Positions 1 to 12,922 of a stretch of DNA of 12,922 nucleotides are shown piece by piece. The notes under the pieces are model-generated. The model saw only the letters and a program-made list of their open reading frames with translations. It did not search any database and had not been told where the DNA came from. Source of the DNA: Dehalococcoidia bacterium UBA3254 (GTDB lineage Bacteria > Chloroflexota > Dehalococcoidia > Dehalococcoidales > UBA3254); NCBI GenBank assembly GCA_002362735.1, contig DEUU01000298.1:1-12922 (forward strand), written 5' to 3'. Each line of letters opens with the position of its first letter. Position 1 is the first letter of the stretch. The position numbers and the translations under genes are program-made.

Positions 1-1187
1 GCCGCCCACATCTGGTGCTGCCCGACACCGGTCACAATTATCGCTGTCCCTTTCGTTACTTCATAGATTTTGCGAATCACAAACTGGGGTAACAAGTTCC
101 TCGCGTTCCTGGTTCTGGTCGTGACCATCGGATGGTCTCTTCGCCACTCTTCCATCTGCGCAATCCAGGCCGTATGTTTCGCTGGCTGGACTAATTTATT
201 TAAAGGATCCAGCACCTTTTTCACATCGCCGACAATTGGAACATCCACCCTGACATTTTTACCGATCTCAGCCGGATCAATATCAATATGGATGATCCTG
301 GCATTTGGAGCGAAAGCGCTTACCCTGGCGGTTACACGATCGTCAAACCTCATCCCGATGGCGATGATCAAATCACAATCGCAGATAGCCTTATTGGCAT
401 ACACCATACCATGCATACCCAGCATACCATAGCTCAAAGGGTTCGATTCCGGAAACGAGCCGATTCCCAGCAAAGTAGTCACTACCGGTATCTGGGCCTT
501 CTCTGCCAGCTGTTTTAATTCTTCATAAGCCCTGGATATAACTACTCCTCTACCGGCTATAATAACCGGCTTATCACAGGAGTTATTGATAATTTCAGCA
601 GCCTTTTTGATCTGAGCCGAATGGCCTTGCACCGTGGGCTTATAGCCTGGCAGATCTACACCATCGGGATACTCATACTCCGCTTTTTCCGTAAAGACAT
701 CTACCGGTATATCGATCAAAATCGGACCAGGCCTGCCGGTCTTAGCCAGATAAAACGATTCCTTAATAATCCTGGGCAACTGACTGGCTTCCATGGCCAG
801 ATAGTTATGCTTTGTTATCGGAAGAGTGATACCCGTAATGTCCACTTCCTGAAATGCGTCTTTACCCAAAGCCGGACGTTCTACCTGGCCAGTAATTGCA
901 ATGATGGGAACGGAGTCCAGTTGGGCATTGGCGATGCCGGTCACCAGATTGGTAGCTCCCGGTCCGGAGGTAGCCAGACAGACACCCACTTTTCCCGTCG
1001 CCCGAGCATAACCGTCGGCAGCGTGGGCTGCTCCCTGCTCGTGCCGTACCAGTATGTGTCGTAACTTCGGATATTGCAGGAGAGTATCATACAACGGTAT
1101 GACTTTTCCTCCGGGAAAGCCGAAGATTACTTCTACTCCCTCTTTTATTAGGCTCTCACATAAAATCTGAGCACCTGTTAATCTCAT
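1..1187 (-). CDS. ilvB: Acetolactate synthase large subunit, C-terminus cut by window edge
   Basis: This thiamine-diphosphate enzyme condenses two pyruvates to acetolactate, or pyruvate with 2-oxobutyrate, as the first common step of valine, leucine and isoleucine synthesis. I translated the minus strand from ATG at 1187 and found one open frame of 395 codons to the edge. The N-terminal motif GFPGGKVIPLYD is at residues 23-34. The ThDP-activating glutamate is E50 in RHEQGAAHAADGYARATGK. SGPGATNLVTGIANA, the IDIPVDV strand and the middle domain with IAIGMRFDDRVTA follow. The last visible residues, VGQHQMWAA, start the ThDP/Mg-binding C-terminal domain, so roughly 170 residues are missing. The start is supported by AAGGAG seven bases upstream. 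It lies 42 bases downstream of ilvD on the same strand, so the two are probably co-transcribed and share the attenuator at 3092-3239. The regulatory subunit ilvN would be expected further left. Confidence 0.96.
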   Translation of the reverse strand, partial: MRLTGAQILCESLIKEGVEVIFGFPGGKVIPLYDTLLQYPKLRHILVRHEQGAAHAADGYARATGKVGVCLATSGPGATNLVTGIANAQLDSVPIIAITGQVERPALGKDAFQEVDITGITLPITKHNYLAMEASQLPRIIKESFYLAKTGRPGPILIDIPVDVFTEKAEYEYPDGVDLPGYKPTVQGHSAQIKKAAEIINNSCDKPVIIAGRGVVISRAYEELKQLAEKAQIPVVTTLLGIGSFPESNPLSYGMLGMHGMVYANKAICDCDLIIAIGMRFDDRVTARVSAFAPNARIIHIDIDPAEIGKNVRVDVPIVGDVKKVLDPLNKLVQPAKHTAWIAQMEEWRRDHPMVTTRTRNARNLLPQFVIRKIYEVTKGTAIIVTGVGQHQMWA

Positions 1188-1229: not shown

Positions 1230-2897
1230 CTATTCTTTAAAAACCGCTCCTGTACTGGCCGAGGTGACTTTTTCAACATAGCGCTTCAGGTATCCGGTCT
1301 TAATTTTAGATTCGAATTCTGGCATTTTTGCTAATCGTTTTGAAATTTCACGAGCGCTTAAATCTACATCGATTTTGTAGTTGGGAATATCAATTTTAAT
1401 GATGTCCCCTTCTTTGACCGCGGCAATAGGCCCACGGCTGGCAGCTTCGGGAGAAACGTGTCCTATGGAAGATCCCCGAGTCGCTCCGGAAAAACGGCCA
1501 TCCGTAATCAAGGCTACCTCTTTATCCAAACCCATTCCTGCAATAATTGAAGTCGGCGTGAGCATTTCACGCATCCCCGGTCCACCCCTGGGGCCTTCAT
1601 AACGAATCACCAGAACATCACCGGGTTTAATTGCGTTCGCCATGATCGCCCTAGTAGCTTCCTCTTCTGAATCAAAAACTCTCGCCGGTCCAGTATGGAC
1701 CATCATCTCAGGAAGGACTGCCGCTCGCTTGACAACGGCACCTTCAGGCGCCAGATTGCCAAATAAAATAGCCGTACCGCCTTTTTGAGAATAAGCTGTC
1801 TTTGAAGAACGTATCACATCCTTATCCACTACCTGCGCTTGACTGACAATCTGGCCAATGGTTGAACCCGAAACTGTTTTACATTTGGTATTCAATAATC
1901 CCTTGATCTGCTTCATAATCGCAGGAATGCCACCCGCTCGGTCCAGGTCTTCAATATGGTGTGCTCCAGTCGGACTAAGTTTACAAATATACGGAGTGCG
2001 CTCGCTGATATCATTTACCGCCTGCAAGGGAAACTCAAACCCGGCTTCGTGCGCTATAGCGGTAAAATGTAATATGGTGTTAGTGCTTCCGCCCAAAGCC
2101 ATATCTACGCTTATAGCATTATTTATCGAATCCCGGGTAATAATATCTCGCGGGCGAACGTTTTCCGCCAGGATTTGGACAATCCTTTGACCAGCTTCCT
2201 TTGCCAGACGTTTTCTTCGAATATCGATAGCTGGAATGGTTCCATTCCCTGGCAAGCCCATCCCAACCGCCTCCGTCAAACAGTTCATTGTATTCGCCGT
2301 ATACATACCAGAACAGCTTCCGCAACCAGGGCAAGCAGCCTGCTCAAGTTGGGCCAGTTCTTCCTCGGTCATTTTGCCACTGGCGGTTTTTCCTACCGCT
2401 TCAAAGGTAGAGCTCAAGTCTACGATTTTGGAACCGTCTGCCGTCGCTAACTTGCCAGCTAACATCGGACCTCCGCTGATAAATATTGACGGTAAATTTA
2501 ATCTCAGCGCCGCCATAATCATTCCGGGAATGATCTTATCGCAATTAGGAATGAACACCAGGGCATCAAAGGCATGAGCTTCAGCGACAACTTCTACGGA
2601 GTCGGCTATCAATTCCCGACTGGGTAAACTATATTTCATACCGGAGTGGTTCATGGCAATGCCGTCGCAAACCGCAATCGTATCCACTTCAAAGGGAACT
2701 CCTCCGGCACTGCGTACTCCGTCTTTAACCGCTTGGGCGATTTCTCGTAAATGCATATGTCCGGGGATTATTTCACTGTAGCTGTTGACGATGCCGATAA
2801 AAGGCTTTTCAAATTCTTCGCGAGTACACCCTAAGGCATATAACAGAGATCGATGGGGAGCCCGCTCGATTCCTTTTTTGATAGAGTCACTTTTCAT
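1230..2897 (-). CDS. ilvD: Dihydroxyacid dehydratase
   Basis: IlvD dehydrates 2,3-dihydroxy-isovalerate and 2,3-dihydroxy-3-methylvalerate to the 2-oxo acids that are transaminated to valine and isoleucine. The 555-residue product has the usual family length. It shows [19 protein letters not shown] (residues 78-96), [10 protein letters not shown] (C119), [19 protein letters not shown] (residues 188-206, with cluster-ligand candidate C195), [15 protein letters not shown] and ITDGRFSG. At the position where [2Fe-2S] plant-type enzymes carry an extra cysteine, this protein reads IIPGHMHL (G46). The E. coli [4Fe-4S] enzyme also has PGH there, which suggests an oxygen-sensitive cluster. I start at ATG 2897, giving MKSDSIKKG, because GGAAGG lies 7 bases upstream and homologues start there. 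The in-frame TTG at 2933 would add 12 residues from a hairpin region. It is the first structural gene after the attenuator. Confidence 0.96.
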
Positions 2898-2959: not shown

Positions 2960-2988
2960 ACCATAACATAGCAACCTATTATTGTCAA
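2960..2988 (-). promoter_or_regulatory. Possible internal promoter of ilvD, downstream of the attenuator
   Basis: On the minus strand, a perfect TTGACA (2988-2983) is followed after 17 bases by TATGGT (2965-2960). A TG one base upstream of the hexamer makes it an extended -10. Transcription would start near 2953, about 56 bases before the ilvD ATG. It lies downstream of the leader terminator, so it would give an attenuation-independent basal level of ilvDB mRNA. The -10 matches consensus at only four of six positions. Confidence 0.45.
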
Positions 2989-3091
2989 AAATCCCTCAAA
3001 GCTAAAATCCGCCCGATTTCCTCTTTATTCCGCCCTCATCTACTTAGGTCAGTTAATTTGCCAATATAGTATTTTAACAACTATATACAAA

Positions 3092-3118
3092 AAGCCCAGG
3101 ATTTTCTTTCCTGGGCTT
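3092..3118 (-). terminator. Intrinsic terminator of the ilv attenuator (segments 3 and 4)
   Basis: The arms AAGCCCAGGA and TCCTGGGCTT pair perfectly over 10 bp around a 7-base loop. On the minus strand the stem runs directly into a U tract (CUUUUUG). It lies between the ilv leader peptide and ilvD. Its upstream arm overlaps the sequence that can pair with the leader-peptide codons, so it can form only when the antiterminator does not. No other terminator separates rpiB from ilvD, so this hairpin must also stop transcripts coming from tsaC-rpiB. Confidence 0.88.
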
Positions 3119-3176
3119 GATGTGTTGTTATTTTTTTCTTTAAGTTTTAAGTTCGAACCACAGGCACATCAAGCCC
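3113..3176 (-). promoter_or_regulatory. Antiterminator stem of the ilv attenuator (segments 2 and 3)
   Basis: GGGCTTGATGTG inside the leader-peptide frame (minus strand, 3176-3165) is the exact reverse complement of CACATCAAGCCC (3124-3113), giving 12 perfect pairs. Six bases at the end of segment 3 (AAGCCC, 3118-3113) also form the start of the terminator, so the two structures exclude each other. Segment 2 can alternatively pair with CAAGCC earlier in the leader frame (codons 8-9), giving the 1:2 protector or pause hairpin. This is the classical four-segment layout of ribosome-controlled attenuation. Confidence 0.85.
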
Positions 3177-3239
3177 TTTGCACAGGCGTACAACCAGTAC
3201 AATAAGGGAGAGGCTTGTGACCAGGTTCTTTATAATCAT
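3147..3239 (-). CDS. Branched-chain amino acid leader peptide of the ilvDB operon (30 aa)
   Basis: A 30-codon frame runs from ATG 3239 to TAA 3147. Sixteen of its 30 residues are Ile, Leu or Val. They include the uninterrupted run LIVLVV at residues 12-17 and the ending LDVPVVRT. The composition and its position, between a promoter and a terminator upstream of ilvD, match the role of IlvL-type leader peptides. When charged branched-chain tRNAs are scarce, a ribosome stalled at codons 12-17 would cover segment 1 and leave codons 22-25 (segment 2) free to form the antiterminator. A ribosome reaching the stop codon would cover segment 2 and permit termination. The Shine-Dalgarno is modest (AAGGGA, about 11 bases upstream). 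The peptide itself probably has no function beyond its translation. The sequence is not a shadow of a larger gene. Confidence 0.85.
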   Translation of the reverse strand: MIIKNLVTSLSLIVLVVRLCKGLDVPVVRT

Positions 3240-3274
3240 CTTATATTAATTCCCTTTAGATGAATATTATAATA

Positions 3275-3304
3275 ATCATATTATATGACCGCCGCGCTTG
3301 TCAA
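3275..3304 (-). promoter_or_regulatory. Sigma70-type promoter of the ilv leader and ilvDB operon
   Basis: A perfect TTGACA (3304-3299) begins one base after the rpiB stop codon. It is followed after an 18-base spacer by TATGAT (3280-3275). Transcription would start near 3268, about 29 bases before the leader-peptide ATG. Two further TATAAT hexamers lie nearby, but at spacings of 13 and 27 they fit the -35 box poorly. Confidence 0.75.
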
Positions 3305-3745
3305 CTATAGTATGGTCTCCAGGCGACTAATTTTATCCAGACGGTGCTGGTGACGCCCGCCTTCAAAACGGGTGCTGAAAAAAGTTTTGAGGATATCTTC
3401 AACCCCGGATTCTCCTCTTTCTGCTCCCAAACAAATCACATTGGCATCGTTATGCAATCTTGCTCTTTGAGCTCTAAATACGTCGCAGCATAACGCGGCT
3501 CGGATTCCTTTAATTTTATTGGCGGCAATGCTCATTCCTATTCCAGTTCCACAAATCAAAATTCCGTAATCAGACTCAGAATTGTCAATCGATTCGCATA
3601 CAGATTGTGCAATATCCGGATAATCTACGGAATCGGAAGAATAAGTGCCGAAATCCTGATAGTTGTACCCCATTTTTGAAAGGAGGTTCATGACGAACTT
3701 CTTGTATTCCACTCCCCTGTGATCTGAACCAATCGCAATTTTCAT
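3305..3745 (-). CDS. rpiB: Ribose-5-phosphate isomerase B
   Basis: RpiB interconverts ribose 5-phosphate and ribulose 5-phosphate in the pentose phosphate pathway, and so supplies the ribose for PRPP used by the purine genes further right. The 146-residue protein is of normal RpiB length and starts MKIAIGSDHRG. D8, H9 and R10 belong to the phosphate/sugar site. The catalytic cysteine is C65 in ICGTGIGMSIAANK, and the ring-opening histidine is H98 in LHNDANVICLG. The C-terminus has the family ending RFEGGRHQHRLDKI. It starts 9 bases after tsaC and has no good Shine-Dalgarno of its own, so translational coupling is likely. Pairing of these two genes is also seen in the Bacillus ywlC-ywlF region. 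The TAG stop abuts the -35 box of the next operon. Confidence 0.95.
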   Translation of the reverse strand: MKIAIGSDHRGVEYKKFVMNLLSKMGYNYQDFGTYSSDSVDYPDIAQSVCESIDNSESDYGILICGTGIGMSIAANKIKGIRAALCCDVFRAQRARLHNDANVICLGAERGESGVEDILKTFFSTRFEGGRHQHRLDKISRLETIL

Positions 3746-5343: not shown

Positions 5344-5991
5344 ATGCGATATAAAGAATTATGGATTCACCTAAATTTTATTCGTCTAATACCGGCTTTA
5401 ACAACTTATCTCGTATCTCCCGAAAGGAAAATTATCAGGCAAGATATAGCTGTATTTATTAAAGATTGTAATATTGAAAAATGTAAGTACCCTTTTTGGA
5501 AAAATCTCCAATACCTGATGCTGTATTATCCTGAATTCAGGAACCTCTTCTATTACAGAACAAAAAAAAGCAGATACATTTTATCCAAACTGATAGAGCC
5601 ATTTTATCCTCGTTTGGTCACTCTGGATATTTCGACCGATTCAATTGGTCCTGGGCTTCTCATTACGCATGGTTACTGCACATTAATATACGCCAAGAAA
5701 ATCGGGGAAAATTGCCGAATTTTTCATGAAGTCACCATTGGCTCTATAAAAGGAGATGGACCCATTATTGGGAATCATGTCTTAATTAATCCTGGGGCTA
5801 AAATTAGCGGTAATATCCGGATAGGTAATAACTCTATTATTGGGGCCAATTCCGTGGTAATCAGGGACGTTCCTGATAATTGTACTGCTGCGGGTGTTCC
5901 GGCACATATCATTTACAATAAAGAATGGGGTGACAAAAAAGAAAACAGTAATAATAAACAGCTAGAACATTTGATCAACTCCATAAGCTAA
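5344..5991 (+). CDS. Serine-acetyltransferase-like left-handed beta-helix O-acetyltransferase
   Basis: This belongs to the hexapeptide-repeat acetyl-CoA-dependent transferases related to CysE. Residues 1-95 are a basic helical region (RYKELWIHLNFIRLIP). Residues 95-190 carry the imperfect hexapeptide turns: IGPGLLITHG, IGENCRIFHEVTIG, IGNHVLINPGAKISGNIRIG, NNSIIGANSVVIRDVP and the ending TAAGVPAHII. H109 in ITHGYC fits the catalytic histidine of CysE. The long GGDRHP loop of classical CysE, with its second histidine, is replaced by the short GSIKGDGP. This resembles enzymes annotated as serine acetyltransferases in polysaccharide loci, so the acceptor may be a sugar and not serine. A Shine-Dalgarno AAAGG precedes the ATG. 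The gene is a single-gene unit with AT-rich flanks and a lysine-rich tail (residues 193-205), which hints at horizontal acquisition. No cysK or glycosyltransferase is adjacent. Confidence 0.75.
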   Translation: MRYKELWIHLNFIRLIPALTTYLVSPERKIIRQDIAVFIKDCNIEKCKYPFWKNLQYLMLYYPEFRNLFYYRTKKSRYILSKLIEPFYPRLVTLDISTDSIGPGLLITHGYCTLIYAKKIGENCRIFHEVTIGSIKGDGPIIGNHVLINPGAKISGNIRIGNNSIIGANSVVIRDVPDNCTAAGVPAHIIYNKEWGDKKENSNNKQLEHLINSIS

Positions 5992-6078: not shown

Positions 6079-6152
6079 GTGTCTTGCATAATGAAAAAGG
6101 TTATCACCCTCGGAAAAAGGTAAGACACAGCTTGACGAAACATTATTGCAAT
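6079..6152 (+). promoter_or_regulatory. Possible structured leader of guaA
   Basis: Two stems can form but not together. GTGTCTT (6079-6085) pairs with AAGACAC (6122-6128). TTGCATAATG (6084-6093) pairs with CATTATTGCAA (6141-6151), with one bulged T, and reaches into the annotated guaA ATG. The loop contains a 10-codon frame (ATG 6091 to TAA 6121-6123) without a clear Shine-Dalgarno. It does not match the purine riboswitch core that I know. The role is inferred from the competing stems and the occluded start. Confidence 0.3.
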
Positions 6153-7860
6153 GGTAAGCTTTTTATCAATGGAAACAGTTGGAAATCCGCAGAATTTGAC
6201 CCCCGATAAAAGTCACCGAGTCTCAACCAGTAATGACATTGAAGTCTCTACTTATCTGGAGATTGCCAAGCAAAAGACCGGGCAAAAACCGATTGAGAGT
6301 GAAGAAACCACTTTGCCACCTGAACCCGAAGCGATCATCATTATAGATTTCGGCTCTCAATACAGCATGCTCATTGCCAGAAGAGTCCGCGAACTTCAGG
6401 TTTATTGCGAATTAGTCTCTCACGATACCCCGTGGGAAAAGATAGCCTCTCTAAATCCCAAAGGGTTTATTTTATCGGGTGGACCGTCCAGCGTCTATGA
6501 GGACGGCGCTCCCTTAGCCCCGGCCTACGTCTATGAAAGCCATCTGCCAGTCCTTGGTATTTGTTACGGCATGCAGGCTATCACCAAGCAACTCGGAGGT
6601 ACGGTGACTCCGGGTACCCGGCAGGAGTACGGACATGCCATTCTTCACCTCAGCCGCATGGACTCGCCCCTGTTTACCGGACTACCGGAAACAACGGCTG
6701 TCTGGATGAGCCACGGAGATAAGATCGAAGATATCCCAAAGGGATTTTCGGCTCTTGCCTACACTGAAAATACTCCGGTGGCCGTCATGGGCAATGACCA
6801 GAATATTTTCGGCCTTCAATTCCATCCCGAAGTGATACATACTCCTGAAGGGAAAAATATACTAAAGAATTTTATATATCAGATATGTTGCTGTCGCGGT
6901 ACCTGGACCATTGGTAACTTTATCGATGAGAGCATATGCCGAATCCGCAGCAGGGTCGGCGACGGTAAAGTTATCTGTGCTCTTTCCGGCGGAGTGGACT
7001 CCTCCGTGGTAGCCACTCTGATTCACAGAGCTATCGGCGAACAGCTCACCTGTATTTTCGTAGACCACGGTCTGATGCGTAAAGAAGAGGTTGAACGCAC
7101 CTTTAACATTTTCCGGCTGAATCTGGGTATGAATATTATCCTATCCGAGTCCGCCGAAAGATTCCTCAAAAGATTAAAGGGTGTTATTGACCCTGAAGCT
7201 AAACGTAAAATCATAGGTGAAGAATTTATCCGTATCTTTGAAGAAGAGGCTCGCAAGATAGGGAAAGTGGACTTTCTAGCCCAGGGTACTCTTTATCCTG
7301 ACGTCATCGAAAGCGCTTCTTCAGGAAGCCGGGCAGCCGCCAAGATTAAAACCCACCATAACGTCGGCGGGTTACCAGCGGATATGTCGCTTCAATTGCT
7401 TGAGCCCTTACGCTCTCTTTTTAAAGACGAGGTCCGCAAGGTCGGCTCTGAACTGGGACTACCAGAGGAAATGGTCTGGCGCCAGCCATTCCCAGGTCCC
7501 GGTCTCGCTATCCGCATTATCGGTGAAGTGACAAGAGAGAAACTGGATATGCTTCGCGAAGCGGACTATATTGTCATGAATGAAATCAGAGCCGCAGGAC
7601 TTTATCATAAACTGTGGCAGAGTTTCGCCGTATTGACCGATGTTAAATCGGTTGGAGTCATGGGAGACTTCCGCACTTACGGATATCTTTTAGCTGTCCG
7701 GGCCGTTACCAGTGATGATGCCATGACTGCTGACTGGGCGCGGCTTCCATACGATATTCTCGCCCGCATTTCTAATCGTGTTGTAAATGAAGTACGCGGT
7801 ATCAACCGCGTTGTTTACGATATTACCTCTAAACCGCCTTCAACTATAGAATGGGAGTAA
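6151..7860 (+). CDS. guaA: GMP synthase (glutamine-hydrolysing)
   Basis: GuaA converts XMP, glutamine and ATP to GMP. The class I glutamine amidotransferase domain starts at [20 protein letters not shown] (residues 62-81). The nucleophile is C138 in LGICYGMQA, and H225 and E227 in QFHPEV complete the triad. The ATP pyrophosphatase domain has the P-loop [11 protein letters not shown] (278-288), and the C-terminal dimerisation domain ends [10 protein letters not shown]. At 569 residues it is about 50 longer than usual. The surplus is an N-terminal stretch of polar, low-similarity sequence before residue 58. No good Shine-Dalgarno precedes ATG 6151 or ATG 6169. A TTG at 6313, about 10 bases after GAGAGTGA, would give a start with normal length, so the true start is uncertain. 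It is the first gene of the purine cluster, 3 bases before purD. Confidence 0.96.
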
Positions 7861-12047: not shown

Positions 12048-12320
12048 ATGAGTATCAAGGTGCATCTGTACTCGAGTTTACGAGCCTATGCCGGTGATCG
12101 CGACCTTGTAGAAGTCCACGGTTCTACCGTCGGTAAATGTCTCGCTGACCTCGTCTCTCAATTTCCTGATCTGTCACCACTATTGTTCGATGATACGGGG
12201 AAAATGCAAAAAGGTGTTTTCGTCTCGATCAACCTGGAGAGTGCTTACCGGGAGCAATTGACAAAGTCTGTTAAAGACAATGATCATCTTTATCTAATAC
12301 TCATCGTTGCTGGAGGTTAA
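12048..12320 (+). CDS. MoaD/ThiS-family ubiquitin-like sulfur carrier protein
   Basis: This is a 90-residue beta-grasp protein of the MoaD/SAMP type. It starts with IKVHLYSSLRAYAGDRD and the predicted strand-helix pattern, and ends LILIVAGG. The terminal Gly-Gly is the hallmark that is adenylated and thiocarboxylated for sulfur transfer into molybdopterin or tungstopterin. Its position, four bases before an aldehyde:ferredoxin oxidoreductase gene, suggests a dedicated role in the pterin cofactor of that enzyme. MoaD-like genes are commonly neighbours of AOR-family genes. A modest AAAGGAT lies 13 bases upstream of ATG 12048. An alternative is a general thiolation or protein-modifier role. Confidence 0.85.
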   Translation: MSIKVHLYSSLRAYAGDRDLVEVHGSTVGKCLADLVSQFPDLSPLLFDDTGKMQKGVFVSINLESAYREQLTKSVKDNDHLYLILIVAGG

Positions 12321-12324
12321 CTTA

Positions 12325-12922
12325 ATGTATCATGGTGGCTATACCGGGAAAATATTAAGGATAAATTTAACTCAGATGACTTCCTCAGAGGAAGCTGTCT
12401 CTTTTGATCTGGCCAGAAAATATTTAGGGGGAGTCGGTTTCGCTTTCAAATATCTGTATGACGAATTTAAACCAGGTACACCCCCTCTGGATCCGGGGAA
12501 TCTTTTAATATTTGCCGTTGGCCCACTGAATGCCACCGGTGCTCCCTGTTCGAACCGTATGGCGGTGGCTTCCAAATCTCCGCTGACAGGATCCATCGCC
12601 TGTTCGCTGAGCGGAGGATATTTCCCGGATGAAATGAAAAAAGCCGGATATGACATGATCATCGTGGAAGGGAAAGCCCCGCACCTCATTTATGTTTCCA
12701 TTAACGATGGCGAGGTCCGTTTCCGCAGTGCCGCCAAATTTAGCGGGATGCAAACTACAGATACTCAGCTCTTCATTAAAGATGAACTCAAAGACCAGAA
12801 TTTTAGAGTGGCTTGTATAGGCCCCGCCGGAGAAAAGATGATCCCTATGGCCTGCATCGTCAATGAGCGGCGGGCAGCCGGCCGCAAGGGCCTGGGAGCC
12901 GTGATGGGCTCGAAAAACCTGA
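12325..12922 (+). CDS. Aldehyde:ferredoxin oxidoreductase family protein, N-terminal third
   Basis: AOR-family enzymes oxidise aldehydes to acids, or reduce acids, with ferredoxin, using a tungsten (or molybdenum) bis-pterin and one [4Fe-4S] cluster. The 199 visible residues form the AOR N-terminal domain. They begin YHGGYTGKILRINL and continue with RKYLGGVGFA (31-40), GPLNATGAPCSNRM (66-79), SKSPLTGSIACSLSGGYF (83-100) and the pterin-binding RRAAGRKGLGAVMGSKNL (182-199). The cluster cysteines lie in the missing C-terminal two thirds. The start ATG 12325 has GGAGG (12312-12316) eight bases upstream. That GGAGG is formed by the two glycine codons ending the preceding gene. The substrate cannot be told from this part: a generic AOR, a benzoyl-CoA-reductase-like or another W-enzyme subfamily remain possible. 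Confidence 0.92.
   Translation, partial: MYHGGYTGKILRINLTQMTSSEEAVSFDLARKYLGGVGFAFKYLYDEFKPGTPPLDPGNLLIFAVGPLNATGAPCSNRMAVASKSPLTGSIACSLSGGYFPDEMKKAGYDMIIVEGKAPHLIYVSINDGEVRFRSAAKFSGMQTTDTQLFIKDELKDQNFRVACIGPAGEKMIPMACIVNERRAAGRKGLGAVMGSKNL

Follow-up and report, generated by a model that had tools for sequence, protein, structure and literature searches.

A probable ribosome-mediated attenuator between rpiB and ilvD in a Dehalococcoidia genome and related elements in the Dehalococcoidales

The enterobacterial ilv and leu attenuators comprise an Ile/Leu/Val-rich leader, pairings of the 1:2/2:3/3:4 logic, and an intrinsic terminator before the first gene. The element analyzed here lies between rpiB and ilvD in a 12,922-nucleotide stretch of DNA, called the window in its whole length. 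It is similar to the enterobacterial layout in leader, logic, and terminator, but it belongs to Chloroflexota and its 1:2 helix is weak. According to a 2010 survey, leader-peptide systems were known in Proteobacteria and Actinobacteria, to which Firmicutes was added (PMC2965389). By their descriptions, the Firmicutes hisS/hisZ leader peptides (PMC2965389) and the S. aureus ilv-leu leader peptide (PMC5794164) represent the same attenuation outside Proteobacteria and Actinobacteria, in another phylum than the window and before other genes. The C. glutamicum ilvBNC leader, MTIIRLVVVTARRLP, is reported to have its start codon one nucleotide from the transcription start, and replacement of three leader Val codons abolished the Val response (PMC11857589). 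As described there, ilvBNC shares with the window a short leader with branched-chain amino acid (BCAA) codons, a choice between antiterminator and terminator, and an ilv operon; nevertheless, the window differs in its phylum, its ilvD-first operon, its 30-codon leader, its inferred 5' UTR of approximately 28 nt, and its position before a second promoter. The Veillonella ilvD motif WRC-18-2 is also a structured leader before ilvD, in some cases with a possible terminator; however, it is presented as a weak riboswitch candidate in Firmicutes, and the accessible part of that report describes no leader peptide (PMC8632094).

What has been published on RNA-based regulation of amino acid genes in Chloroflexota, as given in the accessible text of one report, consists of T-boxes for ileS and trp genes in two Dehalococcoides strains (PMC2494555). 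A 2016 survey of leader genes counted Chloroflexi among the groups whose genomes were too few for a judgment (PMC4833913). In the open-access literature, we found no account of amino acid genes in Chloroflexota being controlled by leader-peptide attenuation; the mechanism is known, and its place, its form, and the re-coded set reported below are new as far as that literature was searched. Judged from its sequence, the element is very probably a ribosome-mediated (leader-peptide) transcription attenuator controlling ilvD-ilvB. What the DNA itself shows is the set of parts, retained in two relatives, together with a copy re-coded for its place before valS and sister elements whose codons match the gene downstream.

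The gap between rpiB and ilvD is read on the minus strand in the order P1, leader frame, segment 2, segment 3, terminator, P2, and ilvD (Table 1). The ATG of ilvD was placed at position 2897 by comparison with relatives, and ilvB was found 3' of ilvD in 17 of 17 Dehalococcoidia loci tested. A further gene of the window, encoding L-threonylcarbamoyladenylate synthase, was named via NCBIfam. Among the best 80 ilvD relatives in a scan of genome contigs, the closest to the window's ilvD were L001 (84%) and L002 (86%), both from Dehalococcoidia MAGs (genomes G001 and G002, respectively), followed by one at 72%. The initial annotation had judged the lineage to be neither proteobacterial nor actinobacterial, and these nearest relatives agree, pointing to Dehalococcoidia of the Chloroflexota. 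In an ilvD tree of 40 rows, from which L096, L100, L115, L004, L013, the fragments L093 and L094, and L123-L221 (too little ilvD) were excluded, the window, G001, and G002 formed one clade (100/100). In the genome set analyzed, the family of G001 and G002 comprised three genomes, the third being G006. The order-level set comprised 156 genomes, G003 included, and the class-level sample 393 genomes.

Table 1. Features of the rpiB-ilvD region, in coordinates of the window
Feature	Position	Strand	Basis
rpiB, ribose-5-phosphate isomerase B, upstream gene	3305..3745	-	NCBIfam PRK05571/TIGR01120 above cut-off; sequence; same junction in G001 and G002
Promoter P1, TTGACA-18-TATGAT	3275..3304	-	Sequence; TTGACA at the same place in G001 and G002
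Putative leader peptide frame, 30 codons plus stop, 16 Ile/Leu/Val	3147..3239	-	Sequence; homologous frames in G001 and G002
Segment 1, weak pairing partner of segment 2	3210..3220	-	Fold; shuffles
Predicted stall codons 12-17, Leu-Ile-Val-Leu-Val-Val (all Ile/Leu/Val)	3189..3206	-	Sequence; footprint model
Segment 2, GGGCTTGATGTG, codons 22-25	3165..3176	-	Sequence; shuffles
Segment 3, CACATCAAGCCC, overlapping the 5' arm of the terminator	3113..3124	-	Sequence; shuffles
Terminator hairpin (segments 3:4), 10 bp, 7-nt loop	3092..3118	-	Sequence; fold; compensatory A-U to G-C in G001 and G002 (by eye)
Second promoter P2, TTGACA-17-TATGGT, extended -10, downstream of the attenuator	2960..2988	-	Sequence; counterparts in other loci
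ilvD, dihydroxy-acid dehydratase, regulated gene	1230..2897	-	NCBIfam TIGR00110 above cut-off
ilvB, acetolactate synthase large subunit, cut off by the window end	1..1187	-	Reading and synteny

The promoter, the leader frame, and the perfect complement that the initial annotation had reported in this gap were all recovered. P1 matches 11 of 12 consensus bases, with its -35 box immediately 3' of the rpiB stop codon; it was not significant on its own, because the region holds three promoter-like sites compared to a mean of 1.4 in shuffles. The leader frame, MIIKNLVTSLSLIVLVVRLCKGLDVPVVRT, runs from ATG to TAA behind a weak Shine-Dalgarno sequence, with six of its Ile/Leu/Val codons consecutive. 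Among the 222 small ORFs (12-45 aa) of the window, it was the sole one composed of at least half Ile, Leu, and Val with a run of at least six, a composition also seen in 9 of 29,011 ORFs from 100 dinucleotide shuffles of the window. Segments 2 and 3 are perfectly complementary and can form a 12-bp antiterminator; when the frame was shuffled 5000 times and compared with the same 55 downstream bases, a single shuffle attained this length. The folding of the leader had a z of -3.84, and none of 200 shuffles was equally good.

The 10-bp terminator was found, with its stem at 3118..3092, but its U-tract is short (CTTTTTG) and two of the five U lie within the stem. In the proposed scheme of 1:2, 2:3, and 3:4 pairings, the latter two were found in the sequence, whereas helix 1:2, although present in the full-length MFE fold, is a weak part of the element: its pairing was matched in 321 of 2000 shuffles for the window, 56 of 2000 for G002, and 4 of 2000 for G001. 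Segment 1:2 pairing therefore exists but is not special within the window alone.

The window's attenuator form, designated form C, is also found in G001 and G002, in which rpiB, P1 directly after the stop codon, leader, antiterminator, terminator, P2, and ilvD follow in the same order. Their leaders are MYSQKFNTGLVLIVNVALVCARPGVSAQI and MNLQKLNTGLVLIVVVALLCERPGVSAEN, and CTTATTGTA (Leu-Ile-Val) is invariant across all three. Conservation of the frame and covariation in relatives had been suggested at the outset as a check on the element, and two compensatory changes were seen by eye in G001 and G002 relative to the window: at position 5 of segment 2, a double change from U-A to C-G that keeps the pairing, and in the terminator a double change from A-U to G-C that likewise does so. 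By the same comparison, the antiterminator further shows one A-U to G-U change and the loss of one outer end pair in both relatives, and the terminator one A-U to G-U change. Apart from the BCAA core, the leader sequence is poorly conserved; of 10 codons differing between G001 and G002, 8 specify another amino acid, and an Asn interrupts the Ile/Leu/Val run in G001, both of which speak against the attenuator reading.

A model, R2, was built from the window, G001, and G002. Searched against G001, G002, and G006, it matched the first two and not G006, and gave one additional chance-level match in G002 at E 1.9. In the wide searches, both of which used stricter filters that lose weak matches, R2 matched 4 of the 156 order genomes, namely G001, G002, G090 (E 2.3e-5), and G135 (E 5.9e-4), and G002 alone among the 393 sampled class genomes. 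The window's exact form is rare in the order, and most genomes have other ilvD leaders. That the form comes from three close sequences and one distant copy counts against the attenuator reading. The E-value of G135 is on its own marginal across about 156 genomes. This copy (L278, G135:C119:2102-2265, minus strand) lies directly before valS; the best NCBIfam match of the downstream gene was valine-tRNA ligase PRK13208 at 687 bits, for a 480-aa piece against a whole-protein cut-off of 738. Its leader, MVNISYSATSVVVVVTGAWRVSSLTTT, has consecutive Val codons at positions 11-15 and is the sole one of 46 small ORFs there with five Val running. The G135 antiterminator has 7+7 bp (14 bp; -24.3 kcal/mol), and a terminator is present. 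The Val run ends approximately 4 nt before segment 2, so that segment 2 would stay accessible only if the ribosome stalled near the start of the run. The G090 match (L277, G090:C109:47975-48134, minus strand) lies before an MFS transporter (Pfam), and its candidate leader has Ile, Leu, or Val at 5 of 32 codons, without clear stall codons.

A counterpart of P2, that is, a promoter near ilvD, was found in most examined loci, both within the order and in other Dehalococcoidia; a P2-type promoter, TTGACAAT...TAGTTTACT, occurs in most of L003-L016. In G006, P2 follows the rpiB stop codon immediately, and neither the R2 search nor the upstream region revealed form C there. In G001 (L092), a worn terminator-like hairpin of another form, defined below as form B, lies between P2 and ilvD, about 45-60 bases before ilvD; the window instead has, by eye, a 6-bp hairpin, GGAGAG/CTCTCC, at 2931-2914, just 5' of the ilvD ribosome-binding site. 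Transcription from P2 would escape the switch and give an unattenuated basal level. This promoter bears on another explanation, namely that the hairpin merely terminates the rpiB unit, that ilvD is transcribed from P2, and that the leader frame is a chance ORF. In its favor, P2 is located past the terminator and is the counterpart of the promoter that ilvD usually has in the order; in addition, the hairpin receives a terminator score on either strand, and the amino acids beyond the core vary freely. However, P1 stands directly after the rpiB stop codon in all three members of the clade, the Leu-Ile-Val core, segment 2, and the compensatory changes have been retained, a 12-bp complement is as rare in shuffles as stated above, and G135 carries a copy with five Val codons before valS. 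We therefore consider this explanation quite unlikely.

The initial annotation had also favored control by leader translation rather than by a T-box, and this is supported as the best reading of the sequence. T-box RF00230 had no match in the window, and no Rfam family matched the window at the gathering score; in 10 related loci, the single gathering-score match was a tRNA in L150. A permissive scan of the leader gave four sub-threshold matches (TEG147, MicC, rimP, and RsaJ), which were taken as chance and of which none is a T-box. A T-box, a riboswitch, or a protein-binding leader could nevertheless govern the operon with the ORF being incidental, and the T-box model did match 4 of 5 Dehalococcoidia genomes searched. 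In G002, however, the three T-boxes precede a trpB-like gene, trpE, and ileS, and none is found at the ilv operon; these genes agree with those reported for the two Dehalococcoides strains (PMC2494555). A T-box or known riboswitch as the controller was rejected given the lack of a gathering-score match in the window, and we regard the whole alternative as highly improbable.

Under leader-peptide attenuation, RNA polymerase would start at P1 and a ribosome would begin the 30-codon leader. Under a shortage of charged Leu-, Val-, or Ile-tRNA, the ribosome would stall at codons 12-17 and leave segment 2 free; 2:3 would then pair before segment 4 is made, no terminator would form, and transcription would continue into ilvD. 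When charged tRNA is plentiful, the ribosome would cover segment 2 as segments 3 and 4 emerge, the 3:4 terminator would form, and transcription would stop near position 3089. The switching itself we infer, in part from a footprint model in which 28 nt were masked as the ribosome and the RNA ended before segment 4 (partial transcript). In the window's partial transcript, segments 2 and 3 paired with a probability of 0.88-1.00 when codons 12-17 occupied the A site and of 0.00 when codons 21-28 did; the switch point of the G001 and G002 leaders was at codons 18-21. In this partial-transcript model, the stall codons are thus predicted to be placed such that segment 2 is exposed by a ribosome halted on them and masked by one that moves on. 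Two results depart from the textbook scheme. First, 2:3 also paired in the partial transcript when the ribosome was absent (0.99, window) or rested on the stop codon (window, 0.99; G002, 0.55; G001, 0.65); termination would depend on a moving ribosome covering segment 2. Second, in the full transcript with codons 12-17 in the A site, the equilibrium probability of the terminator was 0.51-0.99 in the window, 0.44-0.95 in G002, and 0.09-0.95 in G001. As the terminator is likely at full-length equilibrium despite the stall, the switch must be kinetic, with 2:3 forming before segment 4 exists.

Among 130 ilvD upstream regions of the order, 36 carried form A, 75 form B, and 2 form C; 16 were without a perfect terminator and 1 was masked. 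Form B was defined as a terminator-like hairpin with a perfect stem no more than 75 nt from ilvD and without a BCAA leader, and the class of 16 was set by the same perfect-stem, 75-nt criterion. The form B hairpin is typically CCGTCC..GGACGG plus a T-run, often some 15-45 nt downstream of the -10 box; it was seen in the last 120 bases before ilvD at L096, L104-L106, L109, L110, L113, L114, L117-L120, L122, and many of L123-L221. The form A set includes L102, with L145 read in another frame and the starts of L097, L163, and L166 moved; L144 and L179 were dropped as false. Form A leaders have 12-17 codons, usually with LVLV or LVLIV, usually followed by GTGGG, and a terminator of the type GCCGTCCC-loop-GGGACGGC-T. 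In 36 of 36 ilvD leaders of this form, the ATG lies 6-10 nt after the -10 box, compared to 35 nt in the window's leader. Such a leader would start at or beside the first base of the transcript. In this placement of the start codon near the presumed transcription start, form A resembles C. glutamicum ilvBNC as reported (PMC11857589).

A second model, R1, was built from the 36 form A ilvD leaders; since the alignment misplaced the terminator arms, it has only 2 base pairs and works as a sequence profile. R1 matched 40 of the 156 order genomes, G001 and G002 not among them, and 7 of the 393 genomes in the class sample. The 60 matches listed for the order comprised 37 before ilvD (the 36 plus G053, with the leader MNSLRFSLVLIITYCSQ), 21 at other sites, and 2 weak matches, in G031 and G156, where form B is found. 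The 21 non-ilvD sites (L252-L254 and L256-L273) lie before leuS (15) and valS (6), so that the order holds 58 form A elements. A perfect-stem terminator was present in 56 of 57 elements tested, and a loop-proximal alternative duplex of at least 5 bp in 53 of 56. The antiterminator strength averaged 14.78, compared to 12.86 for shuffled spacers with a best of 14.56 among 200 shuffle means; it is thus barely above shuffles, and the case for a form A antiterminator rests on the recurring GTGGG/CCCAC. Order-wide tallies of terminator pairs are not in register, as stem length varies, and no covariation count was drawn from them. A pattern search for further regulated genes gave 59 matches in 43 of 156 genomes, and the reversed control pattern gave none. 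One match lies in G044, and a form-B-like one lies in G065, the latter with no assigned gene. Two others, G016:C103:1503-1563 and G080:C24:34081-34141, resemble T-box leaders, judged by GGGTGGTACCGCGG, which we take to be a T-box motif, and have terminators like the ilvD ones.

The codons of the form A leaders were found to differ with the downstream gene, where leuS and valS were assigned from the top NCBIfam match to the N-terminal 285-480 residues (among the 15 LeuRS pieces, 5 score below the full-length cut-off). Leu and Val averaged 3.20 and 0.27 in the leuS leaders, such as MKRKNLTLTLSIDSP, and 1.00 and 3.67 in the valS leaders, such as MKRTVVVVTI; the form A ilvD leaders averaged 2.44 Leu, 2.42 Val, and 1.78 Ile. 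Leu exceeded Val in 15 of 15 leuS leaders, and all six valS leaders had at least three Val, one of them in a tie with three Leu. The difference between leuS and valS codons was reached in 3 of 100,000 label permutations, uncorrected for relatedness. Moreover, in each of the six genomes that carry both kinds, the valS leader has at least three Val and the leuS leader at most one. The distance from the -10 box to the start codon is 6-9 nt in all 15 leuS leaders. Among the six valS leaders it is 8 nt in two and 19-21 nt in the other four, which are therefore not leaderless. Leader peptides with cognate codons before ilvB and before leuS have been described in Actinobacteria, but the available account does not present them as one element (PMC1262725), whereas ilvD, leuS, and valS of the Dehalococcoidales share one recognizable element with different codons.

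This tracking of the downstream gene by the leader codons of the sister elements also weighs against a peptide that works in trans, or that couples translation to the next gene, instead of through stalling in cis. A trans-acting leader peptide, peTrpL, has been reported (PMC7298713); in the window, however, the frame ends approximately 250 nt before ilvD and the sequence beyond the BCAA core is poorly conserved, and we hold this explanation to be improbable in the extreme. If cis attenuation by ribosome stalling holds, this classical mechanism extends to Chloroflexota, and the 58 form A elements with the form C valS copy make up a natural codon-swap experiment linking leader codons to the regulated gene. 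The leaders are short and easily overlooked in annotation.

Beside rpiB, the window's family appears to have gained an upstream promoter-attenuator unit while an older downstream one decayed. More broadly, the Dehalococcoidales may carry modular attenuator cassettes before ilvD, leuS, and valS that are re-coded at each locus to suit the amino acid of the controlled gene, in form A and in the window's form, the latter before ilvD in one family and before valS in G135. In the many genomes with form B, the peptide is absent, leaving a promoter and a terminator that possibly sense something else, and the new unit by rpiB beside the decaying ilvD one would mean that attenuators turn over at a fixed locus. 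To this proposal as a whole we give about even credence. If the stalling mechanism holds, the variety of leaders in front of a single gene would likewise illustrate possible gain, loss, and relocation of attenuators.

Several other features of the window were noted. A hexapeptide acetyltransferase at 5344-5991, flanked by the tsaC/rpiB block on one side and the guaA-purDEBC block on the other, has its best matches to EpsC/CysE, which remain below their cut-offs. At 6151-6340, guaA was listed with approximately 60 additional N-terminal residues ahead of the conserved start, and its true start is probably further in. By eye, 12048-12922 holds a small ubiquitin-like (MoaD/ThiS-type) ORF followed by the apparent start of an aldehyde ferredoxin oxidoreductase.
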